DNA from: Parabacteroides faecis
GTDB taxonomy: Bacteria > Bacteroidota > Bacteroidia > Bacteroidales > Tannerellaceae
Direction: 5' to 3'
NCBI RefSeq assembly: GCF_014647375.1
Contig: NZ_BMPB01000006.1
Location: 62,001-126,000 of the forward strand
Length of the DNA: 64,000 bases
Below the pieces are notes generated by a model. That model made no database searches. It had not been told where the DNA came from and saw only the letters and a list, made by a program, of their open reading frames with translations. The position numbers and the translations under genes were made by a program. Position 1 is the first letter of the stretch. Each line of letters starts with the position of its first letter. Positions 3,235 through 26,800 of the stretch are shown piece after piece.

Positions 3235-6200
3235 ATGTGGAAAAAATTATTGATTACAGGATGTATGGCCTTCTGCCTGTTAAGCGGAGGGATACTATCC
3301 GCACAACCCAGTTGTGAGACGAAAGAGGAGGTTACCTCCGAACAACTGGACAGGACGCAAAAAGGACTGGTTGCCATGATGAAAGAGCTGAAAAACGACT
3401 CTTATTTTCAGGCGGAACTGGATAAAGCTGCTGCCCAGTCGACCCCATCCAAACAGATGGAAGCGTATAAGAGTTTGGCTGCCCGTTTGCTTTCTGTCCT
3501 GGAGATACAGGCAGAACTGGAATGGATGAAGCCGGAAGCGATTCAGGAAGCGTTGGGTATCATGAAGAAAAACTCCGGCTTTGATGCCGCATTGGCAGAT
3601 AAACGTTTCGGTGAACTGAAATCGTTGCTTGCCGGAGGATTTGACGGTATTTATACCGGTGATCCCCAGGCAGTCGATAAGGCAAACAAGGCATTGACGC
3701 TGAAACGTAAACTGATGCTGATGAGCCCGGATGTGAATGTCGACAAAATGTTGACGGTTAAGTTCGACCTGGGAGAAAGGGCTAATTTCGTAGGTGCGGG
3801 CAGTCTGGGTATCCAGCCGAATAACTGGTCGAACCTGAGCTCCGCGAGCCGTAAGAACTTCAAAGCCCAACTGGTTGAGTTATCCGGTCTGAAAAGTGGT
3901 GATCTCAGTGAAAAGACACTTTATAAACCGGCTGTAGACGGTTCCTCTGTCACTGACCTGGTATTGAACTGGGACGGGAAGCGATTGATGTTTACCGCTT
4001 TGGATACGGCACGGAGGTGGCAGGTACATGAACTGAATATCGATGGGGGAGACGCTAGACAGGTAACCAATATACCTGAACCGGATCTGGAGTTCTTTGA
4101 CGGAACTTATCTGCCTGACGGACGCATGCTGGCGATTTCCAATATCGGTTATCAGGGCGTTCCTTGTGTAAACGGCAGTGATGCGGTGGGTAATATGGTT
4201 TTGTATGACCCCAGTAACGGCTACCTGCGCCGCCTGACATTCGACCAGGATGCGAACTGGCATCCGGTAGTGATGGCAAACGGAAAAGTAATGTATGTAC
4301 GTTGGGAATATACCGACCTGACGCACTACTTCTCCCGCATAGTCATGCATATGAATCCGGACGGAACGGAACAAAAGTCGTTGTATGGCAGCGGTTCCAT
4401 GTTTCCGAACAGTATTTTCGACGTGCAGCCGTTACCGAAACGTACCAACCGTTTTGTCGGTGTTATCTCCGGGCATCACGGTGTGGCACGTTCCGGCCGT
4501 CTGATGATCTTTGACCCGGCAAAGAGCCGTAAAGAAGAAAAGGGTATGATCCAGGAATTGCCTTTCCGCGGTCGTCCGATCATCCCTGAAATAAAGGATG
4601 AGTTGGTGAACGGTGTATGGCCTCAGTTCATCAAACCGTATCCGCTGACCGACGAGACATTCCTCGTAACAGCCAAGCTGTCTCCGTATAGCCGTTGGGG
4701 TGTTTATCTGGTGGATATTTACGATAACCTGACATTGGTAGCCAATGCGGATGAAGCCGGTATGATCTATTCCGTTCCGGTAAAGAGTACGCCGGTTCCT
4801 CCGGCTATCCCTGACCGTATCAAACCAAATGAAAAGGAAGCGACAGTGTTTATCCAGGATATTTATGAAGGGGAAGGTTTGAGAGGCGTACCGCGCGGAG
4901 AGATCAAATCGTTCCGTGTCTATGCCTATGAATATGCTTATCGCCGGACCTTGTCCGACCATTATAATCATGGTATTCAGGCTGGCTGGGATATCAAACG
5001 CCTGCTGGGAACTGTTCCGGTGGAAGAAGACGGTTCTGCTATTTTCAAGATTCCGGCTAACACGCCTGTTTCCCTTCAACCGCTCGATGCACAGGGGCGT
5101 GCCGTACAGTGGATGCGCAGCTGGCTGACGGGTATGCCGGGCGAAGTGGTTTCGTGTGTCGGTTGCCATGAAGACCAGAACACGATACCTGTGCCGAAGA
5201 GGGTGCTGGCTTCTACCCGTAAGCCTCACGAACTGACGATTGCCGACGGCGGGGTTCGCTCTTATGCCTTTAAGTATGAGGTACAGCCGATACTCGACCG
5301 GGCTTGTGTAGCCTGCCATGACGGAAGTAAAGCCGGACGCCCGAATTTTAAAGATACGACTTCCGTAGGTATTACCGACTGGAGCGGTACGCGTTATTTC
5401 CAGAAGAGTTACCTGGCATTTCATCCTTATGTGAACCGTCAGGGACCGGAAGCGGATATGTATGTCATGAGTCCGTATGAATATCATGCATCTACCAGTG
5501 AGATCGTCCGTATGTTGGAACGGGGGCATTATAATGTGAAACTGACCGACAGTGAGTGGGATCATCTGGTGATGTGGATCGATATGAATGCTTCGGGACG
5601 CGGTGAGTTCGACGCCGATCCGCTGAATGGGTATGACCAGTATGAACGCCGTATCGAACTGGCTGATAAATATGCGAATAATGCAGGTGTGGACTGGCGT
5701 AAAGAGTTGGCCGATTATGCCTCTTATCTGAAAGATAAAGGCGAAATCCGTCCGGAAATGCCGGAAAAGGTAGCTCCTGTAAAACATAAAGAGGTGAAGA
5801 TGAAAGGCTGGCCGTTAACGACGGAAGATATTCAGGCGATGTTGTCAAAGGAAAAGGGACTTAGAAAAGAGATCGAAGTGGCCGACGGTGTCAAGATCGC
5901 TTTCGTTCGTGTTCCTGCCGGTAAGTTCGTGATGGGTACGAATAACGGTTATCCGGACCAGGCTCCTGAATTCAAAGCTGAAGTAAAACAAGGTTTCTGG
6001 ATGACAGAAAAAGAGTTGACGAACGCACAGTATAATGCCTTGGTTCCTGATCACGACAGTCGTATTTATGCACAGCATTGGAAAGATCATACGACTCCCG
6101 GTTATCCGGCGAATAAGCCGAACCAGCCGGTTATCCGTGTCAGCTACGAAGAGGCGATGAAATATTGTGAGATGCTTTCGGAAAAGACCGGATTGAAGGT

Positions 6201-6696
6201 GACGCTCCCGACTGAAGTACAGTGGGAGTGGGCTTGCCGTGGTGGTAGCGACCAGCCGTTCTGGTATGGTGCGATGGATGCGAACTTCGGTCCTTATGAA
6301 AACCTGGCCGATGTCCAGTTGGAAAAGATGGCAGTAACAGGTATCGATCCGCAGCCGATGGAGAAGGATAATCCCTGGTTCCCATATTATAATTACATGC
6401 CGAAGGTTGAAACGGTCAATGATGGAATGATGATCCCGACCGACGAATATAGTTATAAGCCGAACCCGTTCGGACTGATCAATATGCATGGAAATCTGCA
6501 GGAATGGACCCGTTCGTTGTATGTTCCTTATCCTTACAGCGAGAAAGCCCAGGCGGCAGCCAACCCCCGTCAGGTGGTAGCCCGTGGCGGTTCATGGGTA
6601 GATCGTCCGAAAGATGCCACAGCCACTGCGCGCCGTGTTTATCTGCCCTGGCAGCGTGTTAATAATGTAGGGCTTCGCCTGATTATTGAGGATTGA
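3235..6696 (+). CDS. Exported HzsA-like di-haem protein fused to a formylglycine-generating-enzyme (SUMF1/EgtB/PvdO) domain
   Basis: A 1153-residue exported protein with a signal peptide ending near 'GGILSAQ'. Residues about 200-600 contain propeller-like repeats of the PD40/hydrazine-synthase-alpha-related type ('PDGRMLAISNIGYQG', 'NPDGTEQKSLYGSG'). Two c-type haem motifs follow: CVGCH at residues 641-645 and CVACH at 691-695. The C-terminal part (about 870-1150) is a SUMF1/EgtB/PvdO domain: 'PAGKFVMGT', 'TLPTEVQWEWACRGG', 'NPFGLINMHGNLQEWTRS', 'ARGGSWVDRP'. Fusions of this kind are annotated in Bacteroidota and Planctomycetota, but their reaction is not established. Real hydrazine synthesis is not implied. 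Haem attachment would require cytochrome c maturation in the periplasm. The gene is co-transcribed with the preceding exported protein and followed by a strong terminator. Confidence 0.8.
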   Translation: MWKKLLITGCMAFCLLSGGILSAQPSCETKEEVTSEQLDRTQKGLVAMMKELKNDSYFQAELDKAAAQSTPSKQMEAYKSLAARLLSVLEIQAELEWMKPEAIQEALGIMKKNSGFDAALADKRFGELKSLLAGGFDGIYTGDPQAVDKANKALTLKRKLMLMSPDVNVDKMLTVKFDLGERANFVGAGSLGIQPNNWSNLSSASRKNFKAQLVELSGLKSGDLSEKTLYKPAVDGSSVTDLVLNWDGKRLMFTALDTARRWQVHELNIDGGDARQVTNIPEPDLEFFDGTYLPDGRMLAISNIGYQGVPCVNGSDAVGNMVLYDPSNGYLRRLTFDQDANWHPVVMANGKVMYVRWEYTDLTHYFSRIVMHMNPDGTEQKSLYGSGSMFPNSIFDVQPLPKRTNRFVGVISGHHGVARSGRLMIFDPAKSRKEEKGMIQELPFRGRPIIPEIKDELVNGVWPQFIKPYPLTDETFLVTAKLSPYSRWGVYLVDIYDNLTLVANADEAGMIYSVPVKSTPVPPAIPDRIKPNEKEATVFIQDIYEGEGLRGVPRGEIKSFRVYAYEYAYRRTLSDHYNHGIQAGWDIKRLLGTVPVEEDGSAIFKIPANTPVSLQPLDAQGRAVQWMRSWLTGMPGEVVSCVGCHEDQNTIPVPKRVLASTRKPHELTIADGGVRSYAFKYEVQPILDRACVACHDGSKAGRPNFKDTTSVGITDWSGTRYFQKSYLAFHPYVNRQGPEADMYVMSPYEYHASTSEIVRMLERGHYNVKLTDSEWDHLVMWIDMNASGRGEFDADPLNGYDQYERRIELADKYANNAGVDWRKELADYASYLKDKGEIRPEMPEKVAPVKHKEVKMKGWPLTTEDIQAMLSKEKGLRKEIEVADGVKIAFVRVPAGKFVMGTNNGYPDQAPEFKAEVKQGFWMTEKELTNAQYNALVPDHDSRIYAQHWKDHTTPGYPANKPNQPVIRVSYEEAMKYCEMLSEKTGLKVTLPTEVQWEWACRGGSDQPFWYGAMDANFGPYENLADVQLEKMAVTGIDPQPMEKDNPWFPYYNYMPKVETVNDGMMIPTDEYSYKPNPFGLINMHGNLQEWTRSLYVPYPYSEKAQAAANPRQVVARGGSWVDRPKDATATARRVYLPWQRVNNVGLRLIIED

Positions 6697-9151: not shown

Positions 9152-9384
9152 GACTGTATTTCTTTGTCCAGTTCATCAGAAGTGATGCTTAAACCTGCTT
9201 CATCTTCTTTTTCTGCCTGTGCCATATATTCTTTCAGTAAAGAAGAAGGCATTGTATAACTGGACTCTCCTTTCAGTTTGTGTACTAATTCCTGCAATTT
9301 ACGGATAGCCTCCTCGCTGTTAATGTCGGCAAGTATTTCTCGAATCAAGAGCGCTTTTCTTGCTTCTATTTCCATTGTTGTCAT
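9145..9384 (-). CDS. Putative antitoxin of a ParE/RelE-type pair, toxin lost
   Basis: 79 residues, acidic and helical ('REILADINSEEAIRKLQELV', 'DELDKEIQSW'), typical in size and composition of Bacteroidota antitoxins encoded just before ParE/RelE toxins. Its 3' end overlaps the start of the chimeric toxin remnant by 7 bases, the usual arrangement for such pairs. A minus-strand TATCTTTG (9426-9419) fits a -7 box about 35 bases before the ATG. Since only the toxin's first residues survive, the antitoxin is now orphaned. Family assignment is by context and composition, so it is moderately sure. Confidence 0.6.
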   Translation of the reverse strand: MTTMEIEARKALLIREILADINSEEAIRKLQELVHKLKGESSYTMPSSLLKEYMAQAEKEDEAGLSITSDELDKEIQSW

Positions 9385-9438
9385 ATTTAGGCTCCTTTCT
9401 TTAATCTATTATCTTATACAAAGATAAGCAACTTCTGC

Positions 9439-10140
9439 TTAAACGGCATTGTTGTCTTTCAATATTTCTGTTAATTCTTTCACTCCTTCGGATGCTCCTT
9501 TCCGGATAAAGCGGATATCGTTGCGGTAGGTTTTTACCTCTTTCGGGTCTATCAGGTAGATGGGTTGGCCACGGCGTACGTAATTCAGTAATCCGGCAGC
9601 CGGGTAGACGTTGAGGGAGGTTCCTATTACGACAAAGATATCGCACGACTCGACCATACGGATTGCGGGGTCGATCATCGGGACCGCTTCACCGAACCAG
9701 ACAATGAAAGGGCGGAGCTGTATGCCGTGAGGATCTTTATCGCCGATATGGATATCCGGATTTTCCGGAGAAAGGTCGTACGTCGTGTTCAGGTCCCGTA
9801 CGGAACAGGCCTTCATCAGTTCGCCGTGTAAATGGATCACATCGCTACTTCCTGCCTGTTCATGCAGGTTATCGATATTTTGTGTAATGATATGCACATC
9901 GAAATTCTTTTCCAGTTCAGCCAGTCCGATATGTCCCGCGTTGGGCTTGGTGTTAAGCAATTCCCTGCGTCGCTGGTTATAGAAGTTGAGGACCAGTTCG
10001 GGGTTGGAGGCAAAGCCTTCGGGGGTCGCAACGTCTTCCACCCGGTATTTTTCCCAAAGACCATCGGAGTCGCGAAAGGTCGAAATACCACTTTCAGCAC
10101 TCATACCGGCGCCGGTCAGTACGACTAATTTCTTTTTCAT
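9439..10140 (-). CDS. Sirtuin-family NAD-dependent protein deacylase, lacking the zinc cysteines
   Basis: 233 residues starting at 'MKKKLVVLTGAGMSAESGIS'; an upstream start would add 23 residues unlike the family, so it was not chosen. NAD-binding motifs are clear: GAGMSAESGISTFRD (10-24) and 'TQNIDNLHEQAG' (87-97). The catalytic His is H105 in 'HLHGEL'. Sirtuins transfer acyl groups from lysine to ADP-ribose in the cytoplasm. Classical members have four Zn cysteines after this His. Here the module has only one Cys ('KACSVRDLNTT') and continues directly to 'RPFIVWFGEAVP', so it is probably zinc-free, as in many Bacteroidota homologues. A TATCTTTG -7-like box lies at 10171-10164, and a stronger promoter inside the invertible segment also points towards this gene. 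Confidence 0.9.
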   Translation of the reverse strand: MKKKLVVLTGAGMSAESGISTFRDSDGLWEKYRVEDVATPEGFASNPELVLNFYNQRRRELLNTKPNAGHIGLAELEKNFDVHIITQNIDNLHEQAGSSDVIHLHGELMKACSVRDLNTTYDLSPENPDIHIGDKDPHGIQLRPFIVWFGEAVPMIDPAIRMVESCDIFVVIGTSLNVYPAAGLLNYVRRGQPIYLIDPKEVKTYRNDIRFIRKGASEGVKELTEILKDNNAV

Positions 10141-10281
10141 AAGGCTATTGTTTTTGTACTTTACAAAGATAGGTAATTCATGAAGGAGATCCTTGCAAAG
10201 GATAAACAAAAACAGCTTGTATTCTTATGTTTGGAGGATGTTTGTTTTCTTATAAAACGAATTGTTATTTTCTGTATAAAT

Positions 10282-10495
10282 AACATAGTCCTGCTGGAAC
10301 TAGGATGAATAAGATGTTGCAAATATATAAACAAATATAATACAAACAAATTTTAACCTAGCTTTTCGCAAATTATTTAATAAAGACCGGGAAATGTTGC
10401 CAAAGTAGAGCTTTGTAAGTGTAATGTTACTGAATATTCTTACTCTATCGCCTGTATATATCCATTGAATTATATAGTTCCAGCAGAACTTTGTT
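10282..10495. repeat. 21-bp inverted repeats bounding a 172-bp putative invertible segment
   Basis: Left arm 10282-10302 and right arm 10475-10495 are reverse complements at 19 of 21 positions (core CTGCTGGAACTA against TAGTTCCAGCAG). They enclose 10303-10474, which holds a promoter but no gene. The arrangement sits between a minus-strand sirtuin and a plus-strand susC/susD pair. Bacteroidota are known to flip promoters between short inverted repeats by site-specific recombination, including upstream of susC-like genes. The repeat arms and the promoter are seen directly; inversion is inferred. No recombinase gene lies in this window, so it would have to act from elsewhere. Confidence 0.7.
10320..10350 (-). 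promoter_or_regulatory. Bacteroidota-type promoter inside the invertible segment, pointing away from susC
   Basis: On the minus strand, TTTG at 10350-10347 is followed, 19 bases on, by TATATTTG at 10327-10320. This matches the -33 TTG / -7 TAnnTTTG consensus with exact spacing. Transcription would start near 10313 and run through the left repeat towards the sirtuin. If 10303-10474 were inverted, the -7 box would lie on the plus strand at about 10450-10457 and transcription would start near 10465, about 160 bases before the susC ATG. No TAnnTTTG box is present on the plus strand between the right repeat and susC. Confidence 0.7.
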
Positions 10496-10622
10496 GTTTT
10501 TTGTCATTGTCGATTCAGTGAGCAAAAAATTATTACTGGCAGGATGCATAAAAATCAAAGTTTCTTATGAAGATATTTTTAGATCTAAAATGTTGATAAA
10601 TGAACAATTAATTATTAAATTC

Positions 10623-13600
10623 ATGAAAAAACTGTTATGTTTATCGAATGCGAATAATGCCTTGCTCCTGAAAATCCCAAAACAAGCAGGCATTATCACC
10701 GGCATTTTACTGGCTTTTTCTCCGGTAACGAGTGTTAACGGGAACCCGGTGGCGGAACCGGAAATAGTGGTACAGGTTTCTCAGCAATCTTCGACGGTAA
10801 AAGGCGTTGTAGAGGACGATATGGGGCCTGTAGTAGGAGCAACGGTAGTAGTGAAAGGAACTACGAATGGTACGGTGACCGATATGGACGGTAATTTTTC
10901 TTTGCCGGGAGTGAAGAAGGGTAGCATATTGGTTGTTTCGTATGTAGGTTATCTTTCCGAGGAAATTACTTATACAGGACAATCCTCGCTTCGGATTCAA
11001 CTGAAAGAAGACTCGAAACAGCTGGATGAAGTGGTAGTTGTGGGATATGGTTCACAGAAAAAAGTGAATCTGACAGGTTCTGTAAGTACGGTAGACTCTA
11101 AGGTTCTTGAATCTCGCCCGGTGCAGAATGTATCACAGGCACTTCAAGGTGTTATTCCCGGTTTGAATATGTCGGTAGGCAGTAGCGGAGGTATGCTCGA
11201 TGGGTCGCTGAATATCAATATCCGTGGTGGAGGAACGATTGGCCAGGGATCGAGTGGTAGTCCATTGGTGCTGGTCGACGGGATCGAAGGGGATATGAAT
11301 ACCGTCAATCCGAATGATATTGAGAATATCAGTGTATTGAAAGACGCGGCTTCGTCTTCCATCTATGGTGCACGTGCCTCGTTCGGGGTGATCCTTATTA
11401 CAACTAAGAGTGGTAAATCTGGGAAGACCCGGGTGAATTATTCGGGTAATGTACGTTTCTCCGATGCCGTTCAGGTACCGGAGATGGTTGATTCTTATTC
11501 ATTTGCCCAATATTGGAATAGGGCAAATACGAATGGGGGAGGAAATCCGATATTTAATGACGACGCCATGAAAAATATCAGGGATTATATGGACGGTAAG
11601 TTCACCGACCCTACCAAACCGGAATACTATGGTACTGTTGCCGGATCTGATGGTAAATGGAATAACTATGGAGGCGCTTTTGCCAATACGGATTGGTTTT
11701 CAGAGTTCTATCGTGACTGGGTGCCTTCTACGGAACATAATCTTAGCCTGAGTGGTGGTACTGACAAGCTGACCTATATGCTCAGTGGCAGTTTCCTTGA
11801 CCAGACCGGCTTACTAAGGCATGGCGACGACAAGTTCAACCGTTATACAATGAATGCAAAGATCTCGGCAAAACTGGCCGACTGGGTTACTGTAAACTAC
11901 ACTGGCAAATGGACGCGCGAAGATTATCATCGCCCGACCTATCTGACGGGTCTGTTCTTTCATAATATTGCCCGCCGCTGGCCGACTTGTCCGGTTATCG
12001 ATCCGAACGGGCATTATCAGCGGGATATGGAAATAGTCCAGCTGGAAGACGGAGGTAAACAAACCAGCCAGAAGAACTGGTACACCCAGCAGTTGCAGGC
12101 TATTTTCGAACCTATTAAGGACTGGCGTATCGTTGCTGAAGGCAGCATGCGTTCTTACTACCGTAAACAGAGTTGGGCGGTATTGCCTATTTATGCTTAC
12201 GATGCTAAAAATGAACCGTATCTTCTTTCCTGGAACGGTGGTGCGGCCGGTTATTCAGAAGTATCGGATTCACGTGAGGATGAAGACTACTTCTCAACCA
12301 ATATCTATTCGGATTATACCAAATCACTGGGCAATCATAACTTTAAAGTAATGGCCGGTTTTAATGCCGAACTTTACCGTCCGAGCGGATTGACAGGTTT
12401 CGGTACGGACCTGATCTCACCGGATGTTCCGTCGCTCGGTCTGACGCAGGATAATAAGAAAGCAAGTTCCTGGGCACGTGAACGTGCTATTGCCGGTTTC
12501 TTCGGGCGTATCAACTACAATTATGCCGATCGTTACATGTTGGAAGCCAACCTGCGTTACGACGGTTCTTCCCGTTTTATCGGTGATCAGCGTTGGGGAC
12601 TTTTCCCTTCTTTCTCGGCTGGTTGGAATATTGCTCGTGAAGCATTTTTCGAACCCTTGAACGATGTAGTCGGAACATTGAAGGTAAGAGCATCCTGGGG
12701 ACAGCTCGGTAATAATAATACAGACAGCACCGATGCCTGGTATCCGTTCTATCAGAATATGCCGACCGGTACGGCTTCTTCCAGTTGGTTGATAAACGGC
12801 ACTCAGCAGAATGTGGCCGGACTTCCGGGCATCGTTAGCAGCCTGATGACCTGGGAAACGATCGAATCATGGAATGTCGGTCTCGACTGGGGATTGTTCA
12901 ACAACCGTCTGACCGGTTCGTTCGATTATTACAACCGTTATACATATGATATGATTGGGCCGGCTCCTCTTTTGCCTTCTGTTTTGGGCGCCAATGCTCC
13001 GCAAATTAATAACTGCGATATGAAGTCGTATGGATGGGAACTCGAAATGTCGTGGAGAGACCGTATTCAGAAGTTCGATTATGGGGTTCGCCTGGTGGTA
13101 TCCGACAACCTGCGTAAGATACTCCGGTATCCGAATGAAACAATGGCCTTGAGTACTTATTATAAAGGGCAGATTCTGGGGGATATCTGGGGATACCAGA
13201 CGGTCGGGATTGCACAAAGCCAGGAAGAAATGGACAAACATCTTGCCAATGGCGGTACGCCTAACTGGGGAACAAGCTGGGGACCGGGCGATATCATGTA
13301 TGCCAATTTGGATGGTAAAGACGGTGTAGACAGTGGAGCCAATACGCTCGACGATCATGGTGATATGAAGATCATTGGAAATAACACGCCGCGCTATAAC
13401 TTCGGTCTGACATTGGACGGTGCCTGGAACGGACTCGACTTCTCTATTTTCCTGCAAGGGATTATGAAAAGAGATTATATGTTGGGCGGTCCGTATTTCT
13501 GGGGTGCACAAGGCGGCCAATGGCAATCTTGTGCCTTCAGCGAACATATGGATTATTGGCGTCCGGAAGGCGACCCATTGGGAGCCAACACCGGAGCTTA

Positions 13601-16602: not shown

Positions 16603-18072
16603 TTATCCCAGATTGTTCAGAATATCTGTTTTTCCTTCCTTTACTAGGCGGTAGATCATTTCTCCGAACAGGGTATTTACCCATGCAAACCAGGAACGGG
16701 TAAAGTTTTTCGGATCGTCTTTGTGGAACGATTCGTGCATGAAACCGGTATCGCCGTCCGTATCACGAAGCATTTTGACGCAATGACGTATTTCTTCTTT
16801 ATCGTTGGTGGTATTGCAACGCATAATGATACTCATCGGCCAGATAAAGTCGAATCCAATGTGCGGACCTCCGATACCTTCGCCGGCTTTCCCTTTGTAG
16901 AAATAAGGATTCATCGGGCTTAAAACCAGTTTACGGGTATTCTGGTAGACCGGATCGTTCACGTCGATGCATCCCAGATAAGGCATAGCCAGCAAGCTGG
17001 GCACGTTGGCATCGTCCATGAATACATGGTTATGGAAACCGTCTGCTTCGAAAGCATATACTTTTCCGAATTCAGGGTGTTCTACGATTCCGTATTTTTC
17101 GATGGCGGCAGCAACTTCGTCGGCTAATGAGTCGCACTGGCGGGCAAAGTCGTTATCCTTTTTGATGTCGCGCATCATCTCAGCCAGCTGGCGGAGTGAA
17201 GTGACGGCAAACATATTCGACGGGATCAGGAAACCGAACAGGGTCGCGTCGTCAGACGGACGGAAAGAAGATACGATCAATCCGACAGGGTTTACCGGAC
17301 TACCGTAGCCGTCGTTCAGCAATGTATCCCCCTGACGGTCTGTCTTACGGGAGAAACGATACGGGCCGAGTCCGTCCTTGCGTTGTTGTTCGATAAACGT
17401 TTTGTAGACGGTTTTCATTGCCTTTTCCCATTCTGCATCGAAAGGAGAGGTGTCGCCGGTCTTCTTCCAGAAATGATAAGCCAGGCGGATCGGATAACAG
17501 AGTGAGTCGATTTCCCATTTACGCTCATGAAGTTCTTTTTTCATATCTGTCCGGTCGCTTTCCCATTCGCTGCCTGTCGGGCCTTCGTTGAAGCCGTTGG
17601 CGTACGGATCGATATTGATGCACCAGGTCTGGCGGTTGATAACACCTGCCAACATTGTTTTTACTTTCGGATCTTCGTTTGCAAAAATGATATGCGGGAA
17701 AACCTGTGCGGATGAATCGCGCAACCACATCGCGTGGATATCGCCGGTAAGGACGAAAGTGTCGGGTTTACCGTTCACCATTTTGTGCTCACAAGTCGTG
17801 TCGAGTGTGTTGGGAAAACAATTCTCGAACATCCATGCCAGTTTCGGATCTTTCAGCTTGGCTTTTGTCGCCTGGATTGCCTTTTCGACTGCTGCGGAAG
17901 TGAACTGGCGTTTTTCCGGTGCCGGACGCTGGCAAGTGTACTGTAATGTGTTAGATACGAGAGGGGCGCCTGGTGTTGCCGATTCTGCTAAATGAGCAAA
18001 TGATTTCTGCCCGACCAACAGACCTGCCAAAGACAAACCTCCGGATTTTAGAAAGTTTCTACGTGTAGTCAT
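16603..18072 (-). CDS. GH125 exo-alpha-1,6-mannosidase
   Basis: 489 residues with a twin-arginine-like N-terminus ('TTRRNFLKSGGLSLAGLLVG'), so it is exported, probably to the periplasm. The body matches the GH125 (formerly DUF1237) family: 'TGDIHAMWLRDSSAQVFP', 'NGFNEGPTGSEWESDRTDM', 'ERKWEIDSLCYPIRLAYHFW', 'IGGPHIGFDFIWPMSIIMR', 'GDTGFMHESFH', 'FTRSWFAWVNTLFGEM'. Characterised members are inverting enzymes that remove alpha-1,6-linked mannose from the non-reducing end. The GH76 gene lies immediately upstream on the same strand (16-base gap), a pairing also seen in the yeast-mannan loci of Bacteroides. The two probably degrade an alpha-1,6-mannan backbone together. Confidence 0.9.
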   Translation of the reverse strand: MTTRRNFLKSGGLSLAGLLVGQKSFAHLAESATPGAPLVSNTLQYTCQRPAPEKRQFTSAAVEKAIQATKAKLKDPKLAWMFENCFPNTLDTTCEHKMVNGKPDTFVLTGDIHAMWLRDSSAQVFPHIIFANEDPKVKTMLAGVINRQTWCINIDPYANGFNEGPTGSEWESDRTDMKKELHERKWEIDSLCYPIRLAYHFWKKTGDTSPFDAEWEKAMKTVYKTFIEQQRKDGLGPYRFSRKTDRQGDTLLNDGYGSPVNPVGLIVSSFRPSDDATLFGFLIPSNMFAVTSLRQLAEMMRDIKKDNDFARQCDSLADEVAAAIEKYGIVEHPEFGKVYAFEADGFHNHVFMDDANVPSLLAMPYLGCIDVNDPVYQNTRKLVLSPMNPYFYKGKAGEGIGGPHIGFDFIWPMSIIMRCNTTNDKEEIRHCVKMLRDTDGDTGFMHESFHKDDPKNFTRSWFAWVNTLFGEMIYRLVKEGKTDILNNLG

Positions 18073-18088
18073 GGGTTTATTATTTTAT

Positions 18089-19273
18089 TTATTGAATGTT
18101 ACCTGTTTCTGCAAAAAGTTCGATCATACAGGCATTATCTAGCAGCCATTTGAACTTTTTATTATCAATCCCAGCCCAGTCGTTCCCAAGGAATCCGTTT
18201 TCATCCCGTGTATATTGCCAGGCATAACGGGCGTTATCCGCCATGGTATTAACAAATTCATACTTGTTATCCACTTTAGCCAAAGCAAGAAGACCGCGCA
18301 ATAAAATGACATTGAACCACGGATTTGAGGGATAAAAATAAGCATCTTTTCCATTAATACCAGTGCGTTTCTGCAAAAAATGTTTATAAGCTCCTTTTGC
18401 CGTGTTTTGTGCATCCTTCAGGAAGGCTTCGTCTGAAGTTGCCTGGTAAAGGAGTACGCCTGCCTGGATCATCTGTCCGCTGTTATATGTGAACTTGGCT
18501 TTGCCGATCGTTTTATCGAGTCCGATATTGTCCCAATAGACATGATCTGCCGGGTCACAGAGGTTTGCCTTTGTCCAGTTGTAGGTTGCTACAGCCTGTT
18601 CCAGATACTTCCGGTCTTTTGTCAAATTATATAGTTTCATACATAAAACGGTAGCGGGCGCATTTGAACAGGTATTTTTGGATGTCTTTTTCTGTTCGCA
18701 CCAATAGATACCTCCGCCCAACACATCGTCCCATCCGCTGAAAATGTAAGTATATAATTCTTCTGCTTTTTTCAGATAGCGTTCGTTTTGGGTGAGTGCA
18801 TATAGGTTGCAGTAATCAATGGCAAGCCAGTCGTTATCATCGTAAAAACGGTCGCTTTCACCGTTAAACATCGGATAACTTTGATAGCAGAACGGGGTGC
18901 GTGTGTCGTCCCAGTATTTTTCAAGGCCGGGAAGGATGCGTTCTTCCAGTATTTTCAGGTATTTCTCATTTCCGGTGACCTCATACAGCGAGATACAACC
19001 GGACAACATACCGGAATAAGGCCATAGGAAAGATACTTCCTGTCCCTTTTTCTGTTCGGTCCCTTCGGCAAGATAAGTGACGGTGTTTTCCGGATTGACA
19101 GGATAAGTCTCTGAAAGTAATCCATACTTTTCAACGTTGTATTTCGTAAGGATATTGTTCAATAGGGAGTCTGCAATAAGTATATCTCCGTTTGTTTGTT
19201 GAACTGGTTGTTTGTTGCATGAACAAATACAAAATGCAAGCACGCAACAATGAAGAATTGAAGCAAGTTTCAT
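18089..19273 (-). CDS. GH76-family alpha-1,6-mannanase-like lipoprotein
   Basis: 394 residues with a lipoprotein signal (lipobox 'FCICSC'). The (alpha/alpha)6-barrel motifs of GH76 are present: 'SFLWPYSGMLSGCISLYEVTG', 'FYDDNDWLAIDYCNLYALT' containing the paired catalytic Asp, 'LGGGIYWCEQKK', and 'TYNSGQMIQAGVLLYQAT'. GH76 enzymes cut internal alpha-1,6-mannosyl bonds. As a lipoprotein it may act at the outer membrane or periplasmic face, feeding shorter chains to the GH125 exo-enzyme encoded next. A minus-strand TACATTTG (19315-19308) sits about 35 bases before the start and is the likely -7 box; no clear -33 element is seen. Confidence 0.87.
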   Translation of the reverse strand: MKLASILHCCVLAFCICSCNKQPVQQTNGDILIADSLLNNILTKYNVEKYGLLSETYPVNPENTVTYLAEGTEQKKGQEVSFLWPYSGMLSGCISLYEVTGNEKYLKILEERILPGLEKYWDDTRTPFCYQSYPMFNGESDRFYDDNDWLAIDYCNLYALTQNERYLKKAEELYTYIFSGWDDVLGGGIYWCEQKKTSKNTCSNAPATVLCMKLYNLTKDRKYLEQAVATYNWTKANLCDPADHVYWDNIGLDKTIGKAKFTYNSGQMIQAGVLLYQATSDEAFLKDAQNTAKGAYKHFLQKRTGINGKDAYFYPSNPWFNVILLRGLLALAKVDNKYEFVNTMADNARYAWQYTRDENGFLGNDWAGIDNKKFKWLLDNACMIELFAETGNIQ

Positions 19274-23828: not shown

Positions 23829-26800
23829 TTAAAATGTTACTTCTAATCCAAGAGAATATGTGCTGCATATAGGATATTTGGCACCTGAATTCGCACTGCC
23901 TAATTCAGGATCCCAGAATTTGATGTTATCCCAAACTGCCACATTGTTCCCTTGCAAATAAACTCTCAAATTTTTCATACGGAGTTGCTTGAGTATTTTA
24001 TCATTGAATTGATAACCTATCTCGATGTTCTTCAGTCGGAGAAATCCAGCATTACGATGCCACCAGGTACTTGCTTGTGTGTTATGACTGAAGTTGCTGG
24101 TATGCAAACGTGGAAAAAAGACATCTTGATTGTATGGACTCTCTGCTAGCCAGCGGTCTGAAATTTCTGTCCGGCCCGACCCATTATCAACCCCTTGTGT
24201 GAATGGAAGCAGGGCATAATTGTTTGCTAACATATTGGCGGATGTATGTGCTGTCCCCTGGAAGAAGACGCCAACGAAGAATCCTTTCCATTCTGCATTT
24301 ACTCCGAATCCATAGACGATTTCCGGTGTCGCTTGATAATATTTATGATCATAAGTACGGTCATAAGAGTCAATGACACCGTCATTATTCAAATCTTTGT
24401 ATTTGATATCACCAGGGGCAACATTTGCTGCGGGGGTGGGTAGGCCGTCTTTCAATTTATAAGTCTGGCCGCCGTATTCGTTTGTTGTAATATTGAAATC
24501 ATCCGGAGTATAAAGTCCTTCCGCTATATATAGCAACGGCTTGTCAATAGAGTTTCCTGTATATGTCTGATAATCGTATTTCTGAGGGATTTCGTCTCGT
24601 TCAAGGATCTTGTTTTTTGCATAAGTCAAGTTACCTCGTGCAGAGAGATCTACATTTCCTACTTTCTGTTTCACTATAAGATTGGCATCGACTCCCTGAT
24701 TTCTAACAATACCGAAATTCTGGTATGGCTTTACCCGGAGACCGGAAACGTTTGAAACGGTTTCTCTTTGCAATAAGATATCGCTACGACGGTTATAGAA
24801 ATAATCGGCACTTAAATCGACACGTCCTCTGAATAATCCCAGGTCGATACCAGTATTCAGTTTCTTTTCAATTTCCCATGACAGGTTGGGCATGGCGAAA
24901 CTACCTTCTGCAATCCCACTGCCCGGAGAGTTTCCTTTACCGCCATTGGCACCCGGTGTTAGTCCGAAACTGTAACTATCGAGACCTGTATTAATATTTT
25001 CTCTGTATGGGAAACGTGTGTTTTCACCAATATTATCATTTCCGGTTATACCGTAAGAAACTCTTAATTTCAGTTTACTGATATAATCTTCCACTCCTCT
25101 CATGAACTTTTCATGGCTGACAAACCAAGCTGCACCTACGGCAGGGAAAATTCCCCATCTATGGCCTTGCGCAAAGTTTTCACTACCGGTCATACCCATA
25201 CTGGCTTCCAGCATATACCGGTCATCGTATCCATAAGTCGCACGGGCAACCACACTTTGCTTGCGATACGGTAAGAGTTGTAAACCATCTTTATTCTGAT
25301 ATTGCGTCTCTTTTTGCATGTACAATACCATACCGGTTACATCGTGTACTTTATTGAAGGAACGTTGATAATCCAATGAGGCTTCCAGGTAGATCTTTTT
25401 CGTACCATCACGACCGGATATGGCGGGGTTACCTAAAGCAGAACTTTCTTTGATCGTCTTTTTATCGAGGCTTCCGTCTTCATTTCTACCTAACGCATAA
25501 AAGGTTTGCGGAGTTTTCGATCTCTTCATGGTTGAATAGAAGTCGGCATCAAAGCTGACAGACCCCTTTACTGATAATCCTTCTGTGATGAATTTTAGGT
25601 CTTGCTTCAACGTCACTTTGGTTTGTAAGAAAGCACTCCATGTTTTGTTGTATCCGCTATTGTTTAACATGTTGTATGGCTGATATTCAACCCCCCAGCC
25701 GGGAGCACCATGATCCGAGGCTGTACCGTCGGAATAGTACATCGGAATAACATGTACAGGGAAGTGGCTGATATAATTGAAGATTTCATCTGAGGTATAT
25801 CCCGGTTGATTTTTCTTCAAATACTGGCCGCTCATGTCGATGGATAGTTGAGTTGTTTTTGTCAGGTCCATATCCACGTTGGAACGCAGGTTGAAACGTT
25901 GCAATCCGATATTGGCATTGTAATCCTCTTTGGGAGTAGAATCGAAGATACCGTCTTCTGAATAGTAAGCTCCTGAAGCAAAAAAACGTACTTTCTCGGA
26001 ACCACCTCTGAAGTTTACCGTATATCTCTGGCTTTGTGTGTGATTCTGTAGTAAATCATACCAGTTTACAGAAGGATATAGATCCCGGTCTATCCCGGTT
26101 CTGTATTTTTCAAGTGTTTCGTCGGAATATTGGGGATTGAAATATTCTTTGTTCGGATTACCCTGGTCATTCCACAATGCTTCATTATATAATGACAGGT
26201 AGTCATAAGAATTTAATGTTTCAGGCATGCGTGTCGGAGTGACAATACTGTATTGTGCACTGAAGTTGACAGATGTTTTCTGTGCTTTACCTCGTTTGGA
26301 AGTAATCAATACAACCCCATTAGCTCCTTCTGCACCATAAACGGCAGTTGCTGCAGCATCTTTTAAAACGGTGAAACTTTCGATTTCGTCTACGTCGATA
26401 TCGTCCATACTTCTGGGAACACCGTCTACTAATACCAATGCGGATGTACCGCCGGCATATGAACTTTGTCCGCGAATATAGAATGCGGCTGCATCGTTAC
26501 CTGGTTCACCACTGCGTTGTACGGCAATGACACCGGCTATTTGTCCGGCCAACGTATTACGCAAGTTTCGTTGTTTTACATTTAACTCAGCCGGTCCGAT
26601 CGTGTTTAATGAAGAAACAACGCTTTCTTTTTTCTGTTGACCGTAACCGATAACAACAACATCCTCCAGGCCTACGGTAGCTTCCATCATGCGGATGTTG
26701 ATGGATGCTTCGCCTTTATAGGTTTTTTCTTCCGTGTTAAATCCGATATATCGGAACTCAATAACGTCACCTTCGTTGACGTTATTGAGTATATATTTAC

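Follow-up and report, generated by a model that had tools for sequence, protein, structure and literature searches.

A putative phase-variable promoter switch upstream of a susC/susD pair in Parabacteroides faecis and its sister elements in the same genome

Upstream of a susC/susD pair in P. faecis, we identified two inverted arms enclosing a 172-nt segment that carries a promoter directed away from susC. This element is very probably a phase-variable promoter inverton, inverted by a tyrosine recombinase acting in trans and represented here in its OFF orientation; most likely, it is a simple on/off inverton of the Bacteroides fragilis Tsr0667 kind. The initial annotation had proposed a phase-variable promoter switch, and this is still the best reading that the sequence offers, since the element belongs to a class of at least 34 loci in the genome and both promoter orientations occur at homologous loci of the genus. 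Not noted in the initial annotation were this class membership, a likely recombinase, the SIR2 gene toward which the promoter now points and the sister elements preceding sigma genes.

In the window, i.e., the whole 64-kb stretch of DNA that was analysed, the 21-nt arms at 10282-10302 and 10475-10495 (19/21 complementary), previously described together with their 172-nt spacer, were recovered unchanged. They are the sole inverted pair of the window in a scan for 21-nt arms with at least 19 matches and a spacer of 60-600 nt, and no pair was found under the same criteria in eight random windows generated with a first-order Markov model. When the arms are extended to 10278-10302 and 10475-10499, 22 of the 25 positions pair. 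The arm core has the form AGTTC-N5-GAACT, with the left arm one base off the consensus (GGACT), and a degenerate arm pattern with at most three mismatches matched the window twice vs 0.03 matches expected.

Between the arms there is a promoter with a -7 box of the TAnnTTTG type, as in Bacteroides promoter invertons in general; TAnnTTTG is the Bacteroides -7 consensus given in the available part of PMC4747536. The box lies on the minus strand and faces away from susC, as initially described. The promoter had further been defined by a TTG located 19 nt from the box. A TTTG is indeed present 19 nt upstream of TATATTTG, but a TTG or TTTG 19-21 nt before the box is not common to the sister elements; therefore, the stronger evidence comes from the -7 box and from how far it lies from the arm. 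A strict -33 consensus was sought for the class and none was found. A second minus-strand TATATTTG, at 10339..10332, has no TTG 17-23 nt away. On the plus strand, the only TAnnTTTG of the region 9301-10800 is located at 10226-10233, to the left of the element, so that the interval from the right arm to susC contains none, in agreement with the initial annotation. The coordinates of the features are shown in Table 1.

Table 1. Location of the features discussed in the text. Coordinates without a prefix are positions in the window.
Feature	Location	Strand	Remarks
Left inverted arm	10278..10302	+	15-nt core 10287-10301; outward, AGTTCCAGCAGGACT on the minus strand
Right inverted arm	10475..10499	+	15-nt core 10476-10490; outward, AGTTCCAGCAGAACT on the plus strand
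Putative invertible spacer, 172 nt	10303..10474	.	Poorly conserved in four genus homologues except for the promoter end
-7 box TATATTTG of the predicted invertible promoter	10320..10327	-	18 nt from the left-arm core; facing away from susC
Possible -33 element, TTTG	10347..10350	-	19 nt upstream of the -7 box; not shared by the sister elements
susC/ragA TonB-dependent outer-membrane transporter, 1090 aa	10623..13895	+	Pfam; TIGR04056; without STN domain; putative target of the switch
susD-family lipoprotein, 685 aa	13904..15961	+	8 nt after susC
SIR2-family gene, putative NAD-dependent deacylase	9439..10140	-	NCBIfam matches below cut-offs
Candidate tyrosine recombinase, 387 aa	G000:C3:454683-455843		Arm-DNA-bind_5, Phage_int_SAM_5 and Phage_integrase domains
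Loci before sigma-70-family genes	L048:3277-3822, L050:4248-4778, L052:4131-4706, L055:3388-4044, L066:3274-3849, L074:3221-3802
Variant site pair, GTACT halves	L135:4259-4654, L136:4260-4654		Upstream of 84%-identical SusC genes

In the mechanism that we propose, a tyrosine recombinase acting in trans would recombine the AGTTC-N5-GAACT arms and flip the 172-nt segment together with its promoter. As assembled, the sequence has its promoter directed leftward and no box facing susC/susD, which would be the OFF state. If the segment is inverted around the arm cores, so that position x moves to 20777 - x, the -7 box comes to lie at 10450-10457 of the plus strand, with about 158 nt separating it from the probable susC ATG (10623); this calculation reproduces the position proposed initially and comes close to the transcription start some 160 bases before susC that had been estimated. 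In this ON state, the susC/susD mRNA would start approximately 158 nt before the ATG and run through the right arm. Alternatively, susC could start at the in-frame ATG found at 10590, and we infer that susC and susD belong to the same operon. Opposite to this pair and convergent with it, GH125 and GH76 genes are located at 16603-19273. Elsewhere in the window, the region 3235-6696 encodes a 1153-aa protein with an odd combination of FGE-sulfatase and HZS_alpha domains.

Based on a search of the 6.66-Mb genome (33 contigs), paired sites of the AGTTC-N5-GAACT kind were identified at no fewer than 34 loci. This number is a lower bound, obtained from 33 loci in 32 of the 38 regions examined plus the locus of the window; L061 contains two pairs, and L065, L067, L069, L071, L079 and L081 contain none. 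The exact sequence TAGTTCN5GAACTA occurs at 31 sites vs 0 for the reversed control, and the corresponding counts for AGTTCN5GAACTNTG with at most one mismatch are 67/65 vs 9/6. Among the 34 loci listed, 23, including that of the window, have a TAnnTTTG box 14-21 nt inside one arm, and no locus has it inside both; with shuffled spacers (200 trials), a mean of 0.4 loci and a maximum of 3 had a box at this distance. Of the 11 listed loci without a box at 14-21 nt, L045, L054 and L072 have one 31-34 nt from the arm, and the other eight have no box near either arm.

The central five bases of the sites are closely matched within each locus. For pairs selected by their 5-nt arms alone, with one mismatch of 10 allowed in each (n = 36), the central bases were identical in the inverted sense in 35 pairs and in the direct sense in none, and centres of different loci were identical in 14 of 1250 comparisons. 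Tyrosine recombinases require matching sequence between their cleavage points; thus, strand exchange between the arms would depend on identical inverted centres such as these. The shared centre would also keep the loci apart from each other, making the two arms of a locus pair with one another and not with the other sites of the genome. Some loci have a common centre, e.g., L049 and L063, so that such a pairing code would not be perfect. We consider the chances evenly balanced that a single recombinase serves at least 34 inversion loci in one genome with the central five bases as the pairing code. If true, each site would flip with its own partner, and more than 30 promoters of surface proteins and sigma factors would switch independently without the chromosome being rearranged. 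At L061:4065-4260, upstream of a susC, we observed three sites with the same centre, i.e., one left arm and two possible right arms 34 nt apart.

The distribution of the centres also bears on whether the arms are a plain inverted repeat with a different role, such as an operator, a transcript hairpin or a terminator. Their near-palindromic, operator-like form (AGTTC-N5-GAACT) would suit such a role, which is nevertheless highly improbable given that the two arms of a locus have centres identical in the inverted sense, that centres of different loci mostly do not match, and that the promoter has opposite orientations at homologous loci.

These homologous loci are those of the four SusC proteins of the genus set that are most similar to the SusC discussed here (65-66% identity), encoded in G013, G021, G014 and, as the C1 paralogue, the same genome. 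All four have an element upstream, the right arm of which ends 89-155 nt ahead of the matched start. The promoter box is directed toward susC in G021 and G014 and away from it in G013 and the C1 paralogue; hence, both promoter orientations are present among homologous loci of different species. An alignment of the four loci, all turned to the same promoter direction, shows conspicuous conservation of the arms and the -7 box (mean column identity 58%). The initial annotation had named variable arms around a conserved spacer as evidence against a switch, and the opposite was found: the arms and the -7 box are kept, and the spacer is for the most part variable. Beyond the arms, the flanking regions are not alike among these homologues, and no SIR2 match adjoins the element in G013, G021 or G014, so the element seems to travel together with susC. 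When the inverted form of the spacer was sought at the DNA level in 39 genus genomes, only the locus itself and two fragments of about 30 nt were returned, and an exact 26-mer search of viral contigs for the spacer gave no match.

In its left arm, the element deviates from the consensus by the single change noted above, and 3 of the 25 positions of the extended arms do not pair, as might be expected of a once active inverton now locked or decayed in the OFF orientation in this strain. We regard this as unlikely, since the centre is intact and similar single changes occur elsewhere, e.g., at L070 and at the G014 locus, where the box faces susC. For the element of the window, we infer that the segment inverts and that it controls susC.

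Beyond the four closest homologues, no paired sites were found upstream of the 63% homologue in G036 or the 57% homologues in G022 and G009. The closest SusC relatives found come from two B. fragilis genomes, with identities of 84% (L135, L136) and of 75% and 77% (L137, L138). Upstream of the 84%-identical genes, L135 and L136 contain the variant pairs AGTTCTCCAGGTACT / AGTACTCCAGGTACT and AGTTTTCCAGGTACT / AGTATTCCAGGTACT, whose sites are separated by about 365 nt and located some 345 nt upstream of susC. Neither locus has a box 14-21 nt from an arm; the only TAnnTTTG between their arms faces away from susC and lies 87 nt from the arm. No paired sites were found upstream of susC in L137 or L138. 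Thus, a wider AGT...ACT site pair is retained in two of the four B. fragilis relatives, and the simple form seen in the window is not common to the nearest protein relatives.

Among the 34 loci listed, 19 adjoin a SusC ORF, in mixed orientations; these SusC calls were made with three BLAST references, which were confirmed as SusC-like. The box faces away from susC at 12 of the 19 (9 if only boxes at 14-21 nt are counted) and toward it at three (L053, L063 and the second L061 element), no box is present at another three, and the remaining one (L068) has a divergent susC on either side. A sigma-70-family (ECF-type) gene lies directly behind 6 of the 34 loci listed; the box faces the sigma gene in L048 and L074, is directed away from it in L050 and L066, and is missing in L052 and L055. 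The elements before sigma genes could render an entire sigma-controlled system phase-variable. Three other susC genes of the window (at 23829, 32736 and 44845) all have an N-terminal STN domain and an adjacent FecR gene, accompanied in two cases by a sigma gene. As the initial annotation had indicated, no sigma or FecR gene was found among the scanned neighbours of the susC at 10623, which has no STN domain. Given these differences and the six loci that stand before sigma genes, the class seems to act in two modes, in one on susC itself, as at this locus, and in the other on a sigma factor.

On the other side of the element, 147 nt from the left-arm core, is the divergent SIR2 gene, toward which the promoter points in the assembled sequence. 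The switch could therefore be two-way, with the promoter driving SIR2 at present and susC/susD after the flip, so that the two would be expressed alternately. No terminator-like site was found between the promoter and SIR2, which would allow read-through, and a two-way arrangement does occur in the class: at L068:3584-4022, divergent susC genes flank an element on both sides, so that one or the other could be driven depending on its orientation. Nevertheless, we consider alternate expression improbable. The SIR2 gene has its own -7 box, TATCTTTG, at 10164-10171, 31 nt before the ATG, a spacing of 31-32 nt being found in six of the eight closest other SIR2 loci (L226 and L232 excepted). We compared it with 29 other SIR2 loci out of 39 further matches; TAnnTTTG was present within 15-60 nt of the start in 13 of the 30 loci examined, its own included, and AGTTC-N5-GAACT sites, with one mismatch allowed, were found within 700 nt upstream in none of the 29 others. 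Furthermore, as stated above, SIR2 does not accompany the element in G013, G021 or G014. Based on its own -7 box and on the absence of sites at other SIR2 loci, SIR2 was set aside as a second target and taken as a probable bystander of a simple on/off switch of susC/susD.

The initial annotation had suggested looking for recombinases in the genome. A genome-wide search returned 23 Phage_integrase matches, 22 of them above the cut-off, among which the 387-aa tyrosine recombinase of Table 1 is probably the invertase of the class and the best candidate available. By eye, R (GLRFSD), H-R (HTARH), H (LGHK) and Y (TEIY) can be made out in its sequence. Full-length orthologues (at least 59% identity) are present in 19 of the 39 genus genomes, and at least one exact site was found in all 19 vs 6 of the 20 genomes without an orthologue (Fisher 3e-6); in the better 27 genomes alone, the figures are 15/15 vs 4/12 (2e-4). 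These p-values overstate the case, since the genomes of the genus share ancestry. The reversed control pattern occurs in 9 of 19 genomes with an orthologue and 9 of 20 without. A SusC match is present in 18 of the 19 regions around the orthologues, the exception being a 4-kb contig, and 6 of the 19 (G002-G006 and G019) have paired sites about 4.5-5.5 kb from the orthologue; in the genome under study, no paired sites were found in the region around the candidate.

Additionally, the candidate and a protein of B. fragilis Q1F2 are reciprocal best matches (57% identity). The Q1F2 relative is present in two identical copies, each located between susC genes and flanked by inverted AGTCTTTGCAGAACT sites; in Q1F2, the degenerate motif is barely more frequent than the control (37/36 vs 31/33).

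A different tyrosine recombinase of the genome might invert the class instead, a possibility that we consider less probable. Besides the number of Phage_integrase matches, it is favoured by G022, which has 13 exact sites and nothing above about 37% identity to the candidate, and for which another enzyme, or sequence missing from a fragmented assembly, might account; G010 contains a 75%-identical end fragment of the candidate at a contig edge, and G008 and G011 contain partial ones. Homologues of L096 show a similar but weaker association with the sites, which occur in 13 of 14 genomes having an L096 match at E 1e-120 vs 12 of 25 without (Fisher 0.006), and in 8 of 8 vs 17 of 31 when the threshold is 90% identity (0.03). 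Though so associated, L096 was put aside as the invertase for its narrower distribution, its orthologues of at least 90% identity being found in 8 of the 25 genomes with sites, compared with 19 of 25 for full-length orthologues of the candidate at 59% or above, cut-offs that differ between the two. The small recombinases L098-L103 were rejected because their local inverted repeats have other arm sequences. In the comparison with Q1F2, the only reciprocal best matches that were neither near-identical nor below 40% were the candidate and two Xer-like proteins. Overall, the 387-aa recombinase remains the most likely invertase.

Two further observations concern the recombinases of this genome. The small tyrosine recombinases L098-L103 each have a local inverted pair near the gene end, with arms such as ACCTTATTTATATAATAAGGG and GTCTCTTGGTAAGAGAC, and these repeats are apparently separate inverton classes. 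The integrase G000:C1:781269 (L095) is 100% identical over 411 aa to L148 of B. fragilis, which suggests a recently shared mobile element.

The Tsr0667 regions described by Nakayama-Imaohji et al. in 2009 reportedly have the motif AGTYYYN4GDACT. Both AGTTCCAGCAGAACT and AGTTCCAGCAGGACT fit this motif. In B. fragilis, Tsr0667 is a single tyrosine recombinase that inverts susC/susD regions, according to the available sections of PMC4747536 and PMC11852207. The system proposed here is similar in that the element lies beside susC/susD, in that a putative single tyrosine recombinase would act at distant loci and in that the 57% relative in Q1F2 lies between susC genes. In contrast, it belongs to a different genus, is a simple two-arm switch rather than a shufflon, comprises at least 34 loci vs the three shufflon clusters and nine other regions mentioned in the accessible text of PMC4747536, and includes loci that stand before sigma genes.

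The serine recombinase Mpi of B. fragilis, for which 7 of 13 regions are polysaccharide promoters in the part of PMC4747536 that was available, resembles the proposed system as one master invertase flipping many distant promoters; the candidate here, however, is a tyrosine recombinase. According to the available portion of PMC12118408, CPS-type invertons have GTTAC...GTAAC arms, an invertase beside the switch and capsule loci as targets; they share with the present class a promoter between inverted repeats with a palindromic core, integrase/invertase genes and an association with surface molecules. The P. distasonis arm given there, GCTACTYRGNRAGTAGC, differs from the AGTTC...GAACT / GGACT arms of the window, which do not have the GTTAC...GTAAC core. 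The accessible parts of PMC4747536, PMC12632263, PMC8748976, PMC12118408, PMC5903667, PMC11852207 and PMC12691588 contain no description of AGTTC-N5-GAACT in Parabacteroides.

The system is thus of a known type, present here at a large number of loci in one genome. With the locus of the window, Parabacteroides gains a further SusC/SusD switch that is well supported. Greater use may be made of the wider set, which comprises no fewer than 34 sister loci whose site code can be read, together with a candidate enzyme and, apparently, two modes of action. With this set, it is now possible to test how many nutrient-uptake systems a gut symbiont may vary at random, and whether these are kept independent of each other through the central bases of their sites.
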